Below, piece after piece: positions 3,784 to 8,579 of a DNA stretch of 34,685 nt (position 1 is the first letter of the stretch; every line of letters begins with the position of its first letter). Source of the DNA: a virus; IMG/VR virus record IMGVR_UViG_3300042900_000247, positions 1-34,685 of that record. One strand, given 5' to 3'. Both the position numbers and the translations under genes were made by a program. Below the pieces are notes generated by a model. It saw nothing but the letters and a program-made list of their open reading frames with translations. It did no database searches and had not been told where the DNA came from.

Positions 3784-4056
3784 TTATAAGTTTTTATAGC
3801 AAAAAATCTCTATATCATCAACTGATCTAACAACCCTAGCAAAGCATCCATAAGCATTCAATACTTGTATTCTATGCTCTTGTAGGGGTGCAACAATACC
3901 ACTTTCTGTCTTAACTTCCAAAAATATGACGTTGCCTTTGCGGATGCACATAAGATCAGGTATGCCGTTCCAACTTGTTTTCTCAAGTTTTACTACTAGC
4001 CACCCAGACTTAGTTAGCTTATCTTTTATCTTTGTTTGTAGTTCTGATTCTTTCAT
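3784..4056 (-). CDS. VRR-NUC domain nuclease
   Basis: A 90-aa protein that is essentially one VRR-NUC (virus-type replication-repair nuclease) domain of the PD-(D/E)XK fold. Visible motifs are GIPDLM (31-36, Asp34), the strand FLEVKTE (45-51, catalytic Glu47 and Lys49), and PLQEHRI (57-63). Family members resolve branched DNA or act as structure-specific nucleases in phage replication. The length is typical for stand-alone phage versions. It overlaps the upstream gene by 4 bp and is followed at 3 bp by the primase-helicase, so the two are probably translationally coupled. Confidence 0.88.
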   Translation of the reverse strand: MKESELQTKIKDKLTKSGWLVVKLEKTSWNGIPDLMCIRKGNVIFLEVKTESGIVAPLQEHRIQVLNAYGCFARVVRSVDDIEIFCYKNL

Positions 4057-4478
4057 ATTACCTCAATTATTTTATCAATAAAATCTATTATTACTTCTGA
4101 TGGCTGTAATTCGCCATTGTATTCTACTGAGAAATCTACTTCCCATACTTTGTCTTTATCTCTGATGGTGTAAATCATTATTTCTCCTTCTATAGCATTC
4201 CCTGTATCAATGCCGTTATGTTTGGTAAATAGCATCTCTTGTTCGATGAAATTTACATCGTCTTTATCAATTCTCCAATTGATTTTAAGCATCATTGAAT
4301 CTAAAATTGATTCAATAGATTTAATGCCCTGTAAAGTTTGATTTATGTCAATGTGCCAAGAAATTAAATTGCCATCTTTCTTTGATGACCAATAATCAAC
4401 TTCTACATTGATTGGGAGATTTAATCCGTAACTAAGGTTTTCGCATTGTACCTCAAAGTCGTTTGTCTTGTAAGTCAT
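4053..4478 (-). CDS. Hypothetical 141-aa protein
   Basis: Soluble, beta-rich acidic protein (MTYKTNDFEVQCENLSYGL...) with no family I recognise. The frame is open back to 4520, but that start lies inside the tRNA-like element at 4494-4581. I prefer the ATG at 4478, which follows a short A-rich leader of the kind used elsewhere in this phage. The tRNA-like element ends 15 bases before this ATG, so RNA processing there would leave a very short leader. It overlaps the VRR-NUC start by 4 bp and belongs to the replication operon. Function unknown. Confidence 0.75.
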   Translation of the reverse strand: MTYKTNDFEVQCENLSYGLNLPINVEVDYWSSKKDGNLISWHIDINQTLQGIKSIESILDSMMLKINWRIDKDDVNFIEQEMLFTKHNGIDTGNAIEGEIMIYTIRDKDKVWEVDFSVEYNGELQPSEVIIDFIDKIIEVI

Positions 4479-4493
4479 AGTGGTTTTTTTTAG

Positions 4494-4581
4494 TGGGGCA
4501 AGGTAGGGAATCGAACCCACATTATCAACAAAGCTAGTATACTACTTCTATTTATTGTTGATAAAACCGCATTTCCTTGCC
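4494..4581 (-). ncRNA. tRNA-like element 1 (D-arm missing, long hairpin)
   Basis: Read on the minus strand, GGCAAGG (4581-4575) pairs perfectly with CCTTGCC (4503-4497) as a 7-bp acceptor stem, followed by CCA. A canonical T-loop (GGTTCGATTCC) sits at the standard distance, though the T-stem has only its inner 3 pairs (T-T and G-A mismatches at the outer two). No D stem can be formed; the linker contains GCGGTT. In place of the anticodon arm is a 9-bp perfect helix (4564-4556 with 4530-4522) capped by 25 nt. The layout recalls the tRNA-like domain of tmRNA or a D-armless tRNA. I see no credible anticodon. It lies between two genes of one operon. Confidence 0.55.
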
Positions 4582-4652
4582 GTTGTTAATGTGTTATATA
4601 TCCCACATTATCGTATGTAAAAGTGCTTTTTATTACACATTAAATGTCATGT

Positions 4653-4880
4653 TTATATATCAAAACTAACATTACTTTCAGACATCAATTCCCGCAGCTT
4701 ATCTCTAATTTCCTCATAAGCATCGTACTTATCTTGAGGCAAATCATCAGCAGCGTACTTAGTTTTTGCTCTTAGGTATTGGTCTAATTCCCAAAGAACA
4801 GTCCAAAAGTTTAGTGCATTATTTGCCAAATCGTATTCCTGCTGGTCATCGGGTAGGTTAAATTCTAAAATTGCTTTCAT
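4653..4880 (-). CDS. Hypothetical 75-aa phage protein
   Basis: Small acidic helical protein beginning MKAILEFNLPDDQQEYDLAN and continuing with WELDQYLRAKTKYA and a Glu/Lys-rich helix. Similar short proteins starting KxxLEFxLPxDxxE are common in phage replication regions, but to my knowledge none has a known function. It overlaps the upstream Cys-rich gene by 4 bp (4877-4880). After its stop there are 71 bases and then tRNA-like element 1. Membership in the replication operon suggests an accessory role, but nothing in the sequence shows it. Confidence 0.75.
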   Translation of the reverse strand: MKAILEFNLPDDQQEYDLANNALNFWTVLWELDQYLRAKTKYAADDLPQDKYDAYEEIRDKLRELMSESNVSFDI

Positions 4881-5071
4881 AACTTTTTTTTGTCAATCTT
4901 CGGCTTTACTATTTTTTCAATTATATGCTCCCAATAGTATCTACATTCCCCATCCTCATCTTTGGGACTGCTCATAAAATAGGATTGATATATATCAGGC
5001 TTTGAGGCGTATCGGTAACAGCTTTCTTTTAAGTTGCAATAGTGGTCTTTACACATTGTTATGTCTGGCAT
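4877..5071 (-). CDS. Cys-rich small protein, possible metal-binding
   Basis: A 64-aa protein with Cys7, Cys12, Cys18 and a distal Cys43 (pattern C-x4-C-x5-C...C) in MCKDHYCNLKESCYRY. This looks like a small metal or iron-sulfur site. Short proteins with this Cys spacing followed by YRY are frequent in phages, but I know of no assigned function. The C-terminus is very basic (KPKIDKKKL), which would suit nucleic-acid binding. It overlaps the 75-aa gene downstream and follows the SF2 helicase stop by 2 bp, so it is part of a tightly packed operon. Confidence 0.75.
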   Translation of the reverse strand: MPDITMCKDHYCNLKESCYRYASKPDIYQSYFMSSPKDEDGECRYYWEHIIEKIVKPKIDKKKL

Positions 5072-5073
5072 GG

Positions 5074-6303
5074 TTATAGTGTTTTAAAATATTCCAAAGT
5101 AAAATCCTTTTTGTCACATACCGCCTTATATACCTTATCCTCAATGCCACCTTCACTAAATATCCAATATATCTGAGCTTCTTTCTCTCTGTCTTTTGTC
5201 TGTAACCTAGCTCTAGCTTGCCAATAGCTTGTGGCTGAGAAGTCGATATTATAAAATACTAATGCATCTGCTGTGCTAAGATTAATGCCCTCACGACCTG
5301 CAACTATCTGCATTGCAATAACTCTGAAATTACCTTTCTGAAATCCATCGGGGTCAAATCCAAGGTCTTTGCCAAAGATAAATATCAAAATAGCCAATTC
5401 TGCACTAAACTTATAATATATTGCTATCTTTTTGTCTTTAAAATAGTCCTTTATAAATTCTGCTTTTGTGTAATCTATAACTTTTGCCTCCCTTTCAGGC
5501 TCATCAATAATCACAGATCCACTATAAATCTGATGCAGCTTCTGCATTAATTTAACTGCAGTATCAGCTAAAACTACTTGACCTTCGCTATTTTTAATAA
5601 TCTTATCAATCCTAAGCCTATTAGCCATTTTATAGGTAATGTCAGCCATTTTAACGTAAAGAATATTTTCTTGAACGAATGCCTCAAAACCTGCTTGTTC
5701 CTGTGTAAATGACATAAATAAATGCTTTGTTTCTTGGTCAATTAATATTTGGTTAGCGTTGGAATAATCGTTATGTGCTTTGCCACCAATCCATTTTTGT
5801 TTTACATAAACATATTCCTTTGCCCACTTGTAGAAATTAGTAAATTTAAAAAATGGGGAAAATGTTGAAATCCAAAACTGATGATAGATCTGAGAGAATC
5901 CTTCAGGTGTTGGAGTGCCTGACAAATAAATAATTGGTGTTGATGCACAAATCCTTTTTAATTCTTTTGCTCTTATTGATGGAGTAGGATAAGCACTAAT
6001 TGAATGAGCTTCATCTACTATTACTAAATCCCACCCATAATCTACATTGTGAAGTTGCTCGTAGTTAATGACACCAATGGTCATATCGTGAGCAAATGAT
6101 ACCGCTTGTTTAATTATATCATTTATGGCTTTCTTCTTAGTTACGAACAATACTTTTTTAGCTCCAAATTTATGTGCTGCTGATAAACTTGTTAAAGTCT
6201 TGCCAGTCCTTACTTCCATTGCTAGGTAAGCTATTTTATATTTTTTAAGTAAGTCAACAGCATTATTGCTTATTGATTCTTGGTAGTCCCTAAGTTCAGT
6301 CAT
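5074..6303 (-). CDS. SF2 DNA helicase (DEAH / SNF2-like)
   Basis: A 409-aa superfamily 2 helicase or translocase. It opens with a Q-like motif LRDYQ (4-8), then Walker A MEVRTGKT (29-36), motif Ia VLFVTKKKA, DEAH box VIVDEAH (94-100), motif III YLSGTPTPEG (126-135), and in the C-terminal RecA-like domain a motif VI-like YWQARARLQTKDR. Phage proteins of this size act in replication, recombination or repair of phage DNA. It overlaps the MazG-like gene by 8 bp and sits among nuclease and SSB genes, which fits recombination-linked replication. The exact substrate cannot be read from the sequence. Confidence 0.88.
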   Translation of the reverse strand: MTELRDYQESISNNAVDLLKKYKIAYLAMEVRTGKTLTSLSAAHKFGAKKVLFVTKKKAINDIIKQAVSFAHDMTIGVINYEQLHNVDYGWDLVIVDEAHSISAYPTPSIRAKELKRICASTPIIYLSGTPTPEGFSQIYHQFWISTFSPFFKFTNFYKWAKEYVYVKQKWIGGKAHNDYSNANQILIDQETKHLFMSFTQEQAGFEAFVQENILYVKMADITYKMANRLRIDKIIKNSEGQVVLADTAVKLMQKLHQIYSGSVIIDEPEREAKVIDYTKAEFIKDYFKDKKIAIYYKFSAELAILIFIFGKDLGFDPDGFQKGNFRVIAMQIVAGREGINLSTADALVFYNIDFSATSYWQARARLQTKDREKEAQIYWIFSEGGIEDKVYKAVCDKKDFTLEYFKTL

Positions 6304-6526
6304 TAAATTCTTTTTTTAGTCTTTCAATGTATAAGATAGCATCCATCAATTCTTCTTGCAAATGTGTAATCCATTGCAGATGTGATAAATCATCACGATT
6401 TAATGTAGTGCCATATTTTTTAATTCCAACTTCACTACGTTGCATAAACTTACCAATCACAGCATCTACTATTTTATCTTCTTGTTCTAATTTAATAAAT
6501 TCGTAGCACTTAGGGCATTGTTTCAT
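6296..6526 (-). CDS. MazG-like (all-alpha NTP-PPase) protein
   Basis: A 76-aa protein with an N-terminal CPKC pair and a helical core, VGIKKYGTTLNRDDLSH followed by HLQEELMDAILYIERLK. The EE-x2-DA arrangement and the KYG element match short phage proteins of the MazG/dUTPase-type all-alpha NTP pyrophosphohydrolase group, which hydrolyse nucleoside triphosphates. Only one acidic helix is obvious, so enzymatic activity is uncertain and it may act as a dimer or have lost catalysis. It overlaps both neighbours (8 bp and 4 bp) in the replication operon, consistent with nucleotide metabolism. Confidence 0.6.
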   Translation of the reverse strand: MKQCPKCYEFIKLEQEDKIVDAVIGKFMQRSEVGIKKYGTTLNRDDLSHLQWITHLQEELMDAILYIERLKKEFND

Positions 6527-7266
6527 TTCTTATGCTTTAGTTGATAAGATAAGTTCCTAGGCTTTATTTCATCATTTATGGCTTTCCATAAAGAATAAGT
6601 AGTTTGGAATATCTGCCAATCTGCTTTTACTTCTTTAATATCTTTTGTGATTAATTGCCATCCTTTGCCTTGTATTGCTCCTTTTTTGCCTTCTGTCCTA
6701 GTCTTAGCATTAAGCCAAAGAATAGCCACTTGATCAACCTTTACGCTATTTTCCTTTATAAGCTCATTATAGGCTGATAGCTGCAACCAATGAGTAGGTT
6801 GGATGCTATTGCTTGTCTTGATGTCTAATAGGATTTTCTTGCCGTTTATTTCAACTACTCGGTCAAGTGTTCCGGCAAATCCTAGCTTATCAGATATCAT
6901 GTGAACCTCAGACATCTCAATAATAGGATTTATCGTTTGGGTGAACTCAACATATCGTTCAAACATTGACCATTCGCTCATTTTATAAGTAGGATAGCCA
7001 TTATTATTTAAAAATGATACTTCTTGACCATCATCATATCTTTCTGTCAAATCGTGGACATTTGAGCCTCGTTTGCCAGCTTCATCTCTGATGGAGTCAG
7101 CATCTTGACCTACATCTTTAAGCCATTTAAAAAATGCTGCATCTTTAGGATATGCATCTAGAATTGTTGTAACTGATGGAATGTAGCTTCCATTTGGAGA
7201 TAAGTAGAACCTTGCATCTGTAAACTCAATACGGCCTTTAACCAAGTCAATTTGGAACTGTTTCAT
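6523..7266 (-). CDS. RecB/Cas4-like PD-(D/E)XK nuclease
   Basis: A 247-aa nuclease of the phage RecB-like exonuclease group. Visible motifs: RGSNVHDLTERY (67-78, His71), Glu120, GTLDRVV (132-138, Asp135), the catalytic strand LLDIKTS (146-152, Asp148 and Lys150), and the RecB motif QLSAYNEL (162-169). It probably resects DNA ends to feed recombination, in line with the SSB and helicase next to it. It starts 23 bp after tRNA-like element 2, with the leader AAAAAACACACACAATG and no Shine-Dalgarno. It overlaps the MazG-like gene by 4 bp. Confidence 0.85.
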   Translation of the reverse strand: MKQFQIDLVKGRIEFTDARFYLSPNGSYIPSVTTILDAYPKDAAFFKWLKDVGQDADSIRDEAGKRGSNVHDLTERYDDGQEVSFLNNNGYPTYKMSEWSMFERYVEFTQTINPIIEMSEVHMISDKLGFAGTLDRVVEINGKKILLDIKTSNSIQPTHWLQLSAYNELIKENSVKVDQVAILWLNAKTRTEGKKGAIQGKGWQLITKDIKEVKADWQIFQTTYSLWKAINDEIKPRNLSYQLKHKK

Positions 7267-7288
7267 TGTGTGTGTTTTTTAATGTTCG

Positions 7289-7338
7289 TTCTATGCTAGG
7301 GGATCGAACCCAACACTTGCCGACCTTTCGGGCATAGA
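7289..7338 (-). ncRNA. tRNA-like element 2 (miniature, about 50 nt)
   Basis: On the minus strand TCTATGC (7338-7332) pairs perfectly with GCATAGA (7296-7290), a 7-bp acceptor stem, with A at the discriminator place (7289). Directly 5' of GCATAGA is a T-arm with canonical loop (GGTTCGATCC) at the standard offset. Only 18 nt separate the acceptor strand from the T-arm, holding one 4-bp hairpin (CCGA/TCGG, loop AAGG, 7331-7320). There is no room for an anticodon arm. The core TGGGTTCGATYCCCTA is shared with element 1, including a T-T mismatch in the T-stem. It fills the gap between the SSB and RecB-like genes. Confidence 0.55.
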
Positions 7339-7357: not shown

Positions 7358-7939
7358 CTAAAAAGGTATGTCATCACCGATAATATCTTGGGCAATGGGA
7401 TTTATCTTAGGCAATATATTCTCTTTAATGTAAACTTCCAAATATTCCATACGATCTGTATCATCCCAGGTTTCTACACCTTTAACTTTAATCTTCTTCA
7501 TTTGTGGTAAATCTTTTGGCATATCCTTAGTCCAAAAGTGCTTTAAACCTTTACCATTTTGCGAAATGAAAAGCACCGATTGCTTTTTATCTCCATCAAT
7601 ATTTAGCCTAGGAGTTAGTGCAACCATTTGAGTCAAATCTGCATTAGGCAATGCTTTCAGAAAACTTACTGCATATCCGCTAGAATATTTAATGTCAAGT
7701 GTATATTGACCACTACCATCATCCATAATTACCTGCCATGATTTTCCGTATTCAGACTCACGAATTTTAATATCCTTAATAAATCCTTGTAATGAATCAT
7801 AAAATTCTTCATAGACTTCTCTGCCCATCTTGTTGATACGAGCTACAGATTTCTCTGTTGCTTGCTTAAATTGTCTTACTAATTTGCCGTTTGCGATTTG
7901 CAAAAACACTGCGGAGCTTTGACTGTTCTGTAGTCCCAT
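7358..7939 (-). CDS. Phage single-stranded DNA-binding protein
   Basis: A 193-aa protein ending in the acidic tip DDIPF, the hallmark tail of bacterial and phage SSBs that docks partner replication and repair proteins. The body is beta-rich (GKSWQVIMDDGSGQYTLDIKYSSG) with aromatic residues suited to ssDNA stacking. I do not see a standard bacterial SSB signature, so it is a divergent phage type. Position two genes after the promoter of the replication operon, next to a nuclease and a helicase, supports the role of coating ssDNA during replication or recombination. tRNA-like element 2 starts 19 bp after its stop. Confidence 0.75.
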   Translation of the reverse strand: MGLQNSQSSAVFLQIANGKLVRQFKQATEKSVARINKMGREVYEEFYDSLQGFIKDIKIRESEYGKSWQVIMDDGSGQYTLDIKYSSGYAVSFLKALPNADLTQMVALTPRLNIDGDKKQSVLFISQNGKGLKHFWTKDMPKDLPQMKKIKVKGVETWDDTDRMEYLEVYIKENILPKINPIAQDIIGDDIPF

Positions 7940-8430: not shown

Positions 8431-8452
8431 TGTTTAATTGTTTAGTGAGAAA

Positions 8453-8485
8453 CAAAGATAGTATAATAAAATTCATATTACCAAA
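8453..8485 (-). promoter_or_regulatory. Bacteroidota-type promoter of the replication operon
   Basis: On the minus strand TTTG (8485-8482), a 21-bp spacer and TATCTTTG (8460-8453) match the Bacteroidota primary sigma consensus TTTG / TAnnTTTG. The -7 box and spacer length are the same as at 32993-33025. The spacer contains an inverted repeat, TAATA-N7-TATTA (8480-8464), a possible operator for the XRE protein encoded next. Confidence 0.75.
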
Positions 8486-8524
8486 CTTTTATTAAATATT
8501 TGTTTTTATAATATGTAACTAATT

Positions 8525-8552
8525 AAAAATCCCCCTCGTAGAAACGAAGGGG
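8525..8552 (-). terminator. Rho-independent terminator ending the late operon
   Basis: On the minus strand CCCCT-T-CGT (8552-8544) pairs with ACGAGGGG (8539-8532) with a single bulge, loop TTCT, followed by a T-run (8529-8525). It lies between the last late gene (stop at 8580) and the replication-operon promoter, insulating the two leftward blocks. Confidence 0.75.
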
Positions 8553-8579
8553 AGATACACCATAAAACCACACTAGAAA

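Follow-up and report, generated by a model that had tools for sequence, protein, structure and literature searches.

Two elements in a 34,685-base viral contig (IMG/VR record IMGVR_UViG_3300042900_000247, analyzed over its full length and referred to here as the window) fold as the acceptor and T-arm half of a tRNA, lack a decoding arm, and lie between the stop and start codons of neighboring genes at a fixed distance from the ATG that follows; in the smaller, 'mini' form a vestigial D-hairpin is also retained. The first of these (element 2, 49 nucleotides (nt)) separates a gene for a protein resembling single-stranded DNA-binding protein (SSB) from an exonuclease gene, while the second (element 1, 85 nt) precedes a gene of 141 amino acids (aa). 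RNA processing appears to be the most likely role. More specifically, and with modest confidence, we favor the view that the elements are tRNA mimics that would serve as punctuation signals for RNase P and RNase Z, setting the mRNA ends behind the SSB gene.

Structure of the two tRNA-like elements

The components of both elements, all on the minus strand, are as follows.

7290..7338 (-): element 2, mini tRNA-like element, 49 nt; perfect acceptor, compensatory pairs, covariance model score 64 bits
7332-7338/7290-7296 (-): acceptor of element 2, perfect 7 bp, TCTATGC/GCATAGA
7320-7331 (-): D-like hairpin of element 2, 4 bp, CCGA-AAGG-TCGG, with GG in its loop AAGG
7314-7319 (-): linker of element 2, CAAGTG
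7297-7313 (-): T-arm of element 2, loop TTCGATC
7267..7289 (-): A-rich leader of 23 nt, from element 2 to the exonuclease ATG at 7266
4497..4581 (-): element 1, D-arm-less tRNA-like element, 85 nt; recognized by structure and by an ortholog in loci L003 and L040
4575-4581/4497-4503 (-): acceptor of element 1, perfect 7 bp, GGCAAGG/CCTTGCC
4556-4564/4522-4530 (-): inner stem of element 1, 9 bp
4504-4520 (-): T-arm of element 1
4479..4496 (-): leader of 18 nt, from element 1 to the ATG of the 141-aa gene at 4478
4586..4643 (-): predicted hairpin (TTAATGTGT/ACACATTAA) just 5' of element 1; from folding and comparison, weak alone

Element 2 (7338..7290) is laid out as TCTATGC ccga aagg tcgg caagtg TTGGG TTCGATC CCCTA GCATAGA, with no anticodon arm, and element 1 (4581..4497) as GGCAAGG ... 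GTGGG TTCGATT CCCTA CCTTGCC, with no D-stem; each thus combines a 7-bp acceptor helix with a T-arm whose loop reads TTCRANN, as in the Rfam tRNA family RF00005. Folding of the single sequence misses the tRNA-like fold of element 2, which is recovered by comparison. A scanner for acceptor plus T-arm found two matches in the window, and 29 in the window together with 43 relatives, versus a mean of 0.67 in codon-shuffled copies of the same sequences. Neither element was reported by ARAGORN or Rfam when these were run on the window, and at a permissive Rfam threshold the window contained no known ribozyme or other family. Several conventional identities were ruled out: a canonical tRNA, as the anticodon arm tested for is absent; a transfer-messenger RNA, none being found in the window by ARAGORN or Rfam; an intrinsic terminator, there being no U-tract (CCACUAAAAAAAA follows element 1 and ACGAACAUUAAAAAA follows element 2); and a half-tRNA attP fragment, since both acceptor strands are present and paired.

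The ortholog of element 1 in L003 and L040 has the same acceptor and a different inner stem in which pairing is kept (TTATCAACA/TGTTGATAA in element 1 versus ATATTAACG/CGTTAATAT in the ortholog), both sides having changed in three of its nine pairs. A hairpin lies a few bases upstream of element 1 and also of its ortholog; the one in L003 (GTCGCA aaa TGCGAC) is placed at about the same distance, and the two are unrelated in sequence.

A first-pass annotation of this DNA had described the elements as sharing a core, TGGGTTCGATYCCCTA, and as having perfect acceptor helices that differ from one another, and both descriptions proved accurate, the core occurring exactly, twice, and nowhere else in the record. 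A T-T mismatch in the T-stem, to which it attached significance, is indeed present in both elements and is kept in the ortholog of element 1; nine of the ten distinct mini copies pair that position normally, however, the window copy alone having the mismatch, which is therefore rejected as a design feature and regarded as incidental. Its statement that both elements stand just before the ATG of a replication gene was correct as to distance (23 nt for element 2, 18 nt for element 1) and as to the exonuclease behind element 2, but the 141-aa gene is not recognizably a replication gene. The idea of a matched pair was abandoned, as the two belong to different structural classes.

Related elements at the junction and in other viral contigs

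The mini class behaves as a conserved RNA family. Among ten distinct copies, 12 of the 16 pairs display two-sided compensatory changes, and 98.75% of pair cells hold standard pairs, versus 75% in shuffles; the GG of the hairpin (D) loop and the TTCGA of the T-loop are invariant. At the elbow of tRNA, G18-G19 contacts the T-loop, and the mini class corresponds to a tRNA acceptor, T-arm and, we infer, elbow contact, without the anticodon arm. A covariance model, built from ten of the sequences that it later matched, found full-length minis at the SSB-exonuclease junction in nine sources from the set of relatives (the window included), and in a second set also in L131, L144 and L148, with E values of 2e-14 to 3e-20 over all of these, the junction position being verified for L131 and L144. 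Full-length copies were found only at the SSB-like/exonuclease junction; a weaker, partial match (E 1.4e-4) in L150 lies directly behind an SSB-tailed gene.

Relatives of the window were collected as 81 loci, in two scans with the exonuclease that lies downstream of element 2. Assignment of 71 distinct loci to junction classes, made partly by hand, gave the following distribution.

Long tRNA-like element: 27/71
Mini element like element 2: 7/71
Mini plus long element: 2/71
Plain hairpin: 11/71
Hairpin, mostly followed by T's: 7/71
Terminator-like hairpin with loop GTTTCTAC or GTGTCTAC: 7/71
Other complex structure: 3/71
Nothing: 3/71
Another gene: 4/71

Mini or long elements, or both, are accordingly present at 36 of the 71 junctions, and hairpins or terminators of all kinds at 25. 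The first-pass annotation had proposed a covariance model as a check for copies in related operons; they were found at the same gene junction, where half of the distinct relatives have a tRNA-like element. A perfect 7-bp acceptor followed by a T-arm occurs in 28 of 59 distinct gaps, versus a mean of 0.02 in dinucleotide shuffles. Elements begin mostly 7-20 nt past the stop codon and, in 28 of 33 occurrences, end 16-28 nt before the exonuclease ATG, the remaining five being either the first of a tandem pair or placed before an inserted gene; tandem arrays also occur at this junction. The exonuclease tree requires at least 21 changes of element type, some of them between nearly identical exonucleases. 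The distant exonucleases of Leptolyngbya phage Lbo-JY46 and Flavobacterium phage immuto have no element before the gene, because there is no gap in front of it. A helicase gene followed by tRNA-like elements was also seen in L114, L116, L117, L119 and L123, and a second punctuation site behind the helicase may for that reason be general in the group.

Additional structures were recorded at or around these junctions. Terminator-like hairpins with the conserved loop GTTTCTAC occur in the window at 8431-8579 (-) (CCCCTTCGTTTCTACGAGGGG plus a T-run) and in L087, L088, L090, L091, L094, L105, L106, L109 and L112, and those of L092 and L096 carry the loop variant GTGTCTAC. In L031, L034, L038 and L271 a conserved motif, GACAGCWTGGAAAGACAAGC, is part of structured sequence that occupies this junction or immediately precedes tRNA-like elements, while L111, L112 and L113 share a structured region of 130-150 nt at that junction, 5' of the exonuclease, with GGGTTRGAYATAG-like and ACCC motifs. 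A permissive Rfam search of the junction structures of L113 and L031 returned no known ribozyme or other family except tRNA, the match in L031 being to tRNA only and L113 having no credible match. Related linker RNAs (AACTTAAAGAGAG... or GTGACAAACG-GGAGAGAC...) adjoin tRNA-like elements that have a GCGTAATGAGGARTGGT core and different acceptors in L036 (4807-4930), L277, L094 and L046.

Placement behind SSB genes was also encountered in unrelated phages. Contigs L055 and L150 were found through T-arm patterns only. In L055, an SSB-tailed gene (ending ..DEDDLPF-stop) is followed by a 47-nt mini and a helicase gene whose ATG lies 3 nt after the element; in L150, a mini lies 9 nt behind a gene ending ..DDWPEGTPF-stop and is followed by an inverted repeat; and in L046 the order is SSB-tailed gene, hairpin, tRNA-like element and primase-like gene. 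These cases are suggestive only as support for a position behind SSB, and the association is anecdotal rather than statistical, because an automatic count in unrelated contigs placed a tRNA-like element at 1 of 15 SSB-tailed open reading frames (ORFs) and at 62 of 2015 others, with no general enrichment; L150 and L046 fell just outside the overlap, tail or distance limits of that test. A search for relatives of L055 and L150, as a second covariation set, returned those contigs alone. The SSB-tailed genes of other phages, including Cellulophaga phage phi46:1, are often followed by a terminator-like hairpin, and the tRNA mimics therefore seem to occupy the place of a post-SSB terminator or hairpin.

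The long class, which is marked by AGTCAGG and resembles tRNA-Leu, is distributed much more widely than this phage group: the pattern AGTCAGGTGGCGRAATTGGTARACGC was found in at least 120 stretches of viral contigs, versus 3 contigs among 84,980 genomes of bacteria and archaea. The matches listed (loci L151-L270) include 107 distinct elements with 105 different inserts, of 20-196 nt, between the D-arm and T-arm, and none of the 107 has a canonical anticodon arm (5-bp stem, 7-nt loop, U33) at the expected place. Their flanks are nevertheless of tRNA type, with T at position -1 in 79% (background 30%, p 1e-25; 72% for canonical tRNAs of the same contigs), A73 in 83% and C74 in 94%. About 28% have an ORF of at least 50 aa within the next 40 nt, and some sit in phage tRNA arrays.

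Proposed role and alternative explanations

In the equivalent position, relatives have plain hairpins or elements of different sequence, an indication that the elements mark a cut or an end of the phage message rather than aid translation. Control of translation in cis is the weaker explanation, because L116, L117 and L120 have a similar leader and no element. Cutting at both borders is favored because the elements retain the parts of a tRNA that RNase P and RNase Z read, and lack those that the ribosome reads. Within the tRNA body, RNA-based RNase P touches the stacked acceptor and T domain alone, and in many bacteria a U at position -1 is preferred (PMC12630138). Host RNase P would recognize the acceptor/T-arm stack and cut the polycistronic replication transcript on its 5' side, and the cut on the 3' side would be made by RNase Z or a different nuclease for tRNA 3' ends. 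The SSB message would thereby acquire a 3' end of its own, and the exonuclease (as well as the 141-aa gene) would be carried on a separate mRNA whose leader is short and free of structure, the A-rich 23 nt becoming its 5' end behind element 2; the hairpin 5' of element 1 could protect the 3' end of the upstream mRNA. With separate messages, SSB and the genes behind it could therefore be expressed, and decay, independently.

Several observations weigh against such processing. Element 2 begins with U1-A72 rather than G1-C72, which is a poor start for RNase P, and is preceded by G at -1; for junction elements in general the -1 base is usually G rather than U. At element 2, no obvious hairpin would protect the 3' end of the SSB mRNA after RNase P cleavage. 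Finally, processing cannot be essential, because in some close relatives the junction is empty or holds a plain hairpin.

The main rival is a purely structural role, in which a compact fold stops 3'-to-5' exonucleases, causes attenuation of transcription or shields the next start codon, its tRNA shape having been recruited from tRNA genes without any action of tRNA enzymes. The plain 8-9 bp hairpins and U-tract terminators that fill the same junction in 25 of 71 loci are what this account expects, as are the terminator-like hairpins behind the SSB-tailed genes of phi46:1 and other phages; the invariant D-loop GG and T-loop TTCGA of the mini class, however, are needless for a mere hairpin, and the U(-1), A73 and C74 flanks of the long class are left unexplained, so that we consider it unlikely, while taking it seriously. 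That the excised mimics are themselves the product, as stable small RNAs whose hypervariable insert acts as antisense, or as decoys for host defenses that target tRNAs, or both, would accommodate the diversity of the inserts and the proximity of some elements to canonical phage tRNAs, yet an insert is absent from the mini class, element 2 included, and a trans-acting RNA would not be expected to keep so strictly to a position 16-28 nt before an ATG; this appears improbable.

Two further accounts have still less in their favor. Recombination cassettes or attachment-site remnants, in which tRNA ends provide homology for swapping junctions between phages, would agree with the frequent type changes, the tandem arrays at one junction and the recurrence of AGTCAGG ends in many contigs; minis offer little homology, however, because most of their stem bases differ between copies while pairing is kept, and both acceptor halves are present, unlike in attP fragments, which makes the account very improbable. 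Decaying, or odd but functional, tRNA genes are more doubtful again. The long class is clearly of tRNA ancestry, with several members exceeding the Rfam tRNA threshold and some called by ARAGORN, but none of the 107 AGTCAGG elements listed has a canonical anticodon arm at the expected place, the mini class has no such arm at all, and acceptor helices are maintained through compensatory change. The first-pass annotation had likewise argued against two independent decays of normal tRNAs, a position now strengthened by the covariation, the fixed distance to the ATG and the tRNA-type flanks kept in the wider class.

Comparison with known systems places the proposed RNase P/Z punctuation among several precedents. 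The elements probably work like the tRNA punctuation of mitochondria, in which tRNA-shaped elements likewise stand between coding genes and just before the next ORF, although those of phages have no decoding arm, are phage-encoded, can be interchanged with hairpins or terminators, and are cleaved only putatively. Phage RNAs other than tRNAs are known to be RNase P substrates (T4 gene 32 mRNA, which is also an SSB message, phage M3 RNA and P1/P7 C4 antisense RNA; PMC11143913); unlike these, a dedicated arrangement of acceptor, D-hairpin and T-arm recurs here at intergenic junctions with covariation, and cleavage is again presumed. The tRNA-like structures of plant RNA viruses (for example, turnip yellow mosaic virus) are also viral mimics without a canonical cloverleaf, but are 3'-terminal, whereas the phage elements are internal to operons. 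The long class aligns with RF00005 in its acceptor, D-region and T-arm, while the anticodon arm is missing or replaced and the window elements give no match.

Taken more broadly, tRNA mimics without an anticodon may be in wide use among phages as interchangeable punctuation marks for RNase P/Z in mRNA, a counterpart of the mitochondrial system in which the freed anticodon region has become a hypervariable insert; this we put forward tentatively, as a proposal nearly as apt to be right as wrong. Searches of an open-access library turned up no account of phage elements of this kind, subscription papers and preprints being outside its scope. If the proposal is true, phages reuse host tRNA-maturation enzymes to shape their own messages, a large set of non-decoding tRNA-like sequences in viral contigs is explained, and the minis, at 49 nt, offer RNase P and RNase Z minimal substrates of natural origin. 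Counts of phage tRNAs in metagenomes can include non-decoding elements.

Genes around the elements

The replication genes of the window are on its minus strand, and those adjoining the elements are as follows.

7358..7939 (-): SSB-like gene, 5' of element 2; protein with GDDIPF at its C-terminus and an OB-fold-like model
6523..7266 (-): PD-(D/E)XK exonuclease gene, 3' of element 2; phrog_298 exonuclease, E 2.7e-38
4053..4478 (-): 141-aa gene, function unassigned, downstream of element 1

The SSB-like gene had no match in a Pfam search, and the 141-aa gene had no significant family match. The GDDIPF tail of the former resembles the C-terminal end of bacterial SSB, and its AlphaFold model (predicted local distance difference test score 86.6), with weak Foldseek matches to OB folds (RuvA, PrgE and RPA), only suggests an OB fold. 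No near-identical named phages were found for the window. A Bacteroidota host is likely for this uncultured phage, though not proven, because the named relatives of the primase include Cellulophaga and Arthrobacter phages and the SSB-like gene matches in sequence one Cellulophaga phage only. Gene order is broadly conserved among relatives, running from the SSB-like gene through exonuclease, helicase, VRR-NUC nuclease and primase to the DnaA-like gene. In the window, repeated TACGCGAT motifs (970-1293) lie between the DnaA-C-like gene and the primase, a region that is a possible replication origin, and L110 has similar repeats at the matching place.

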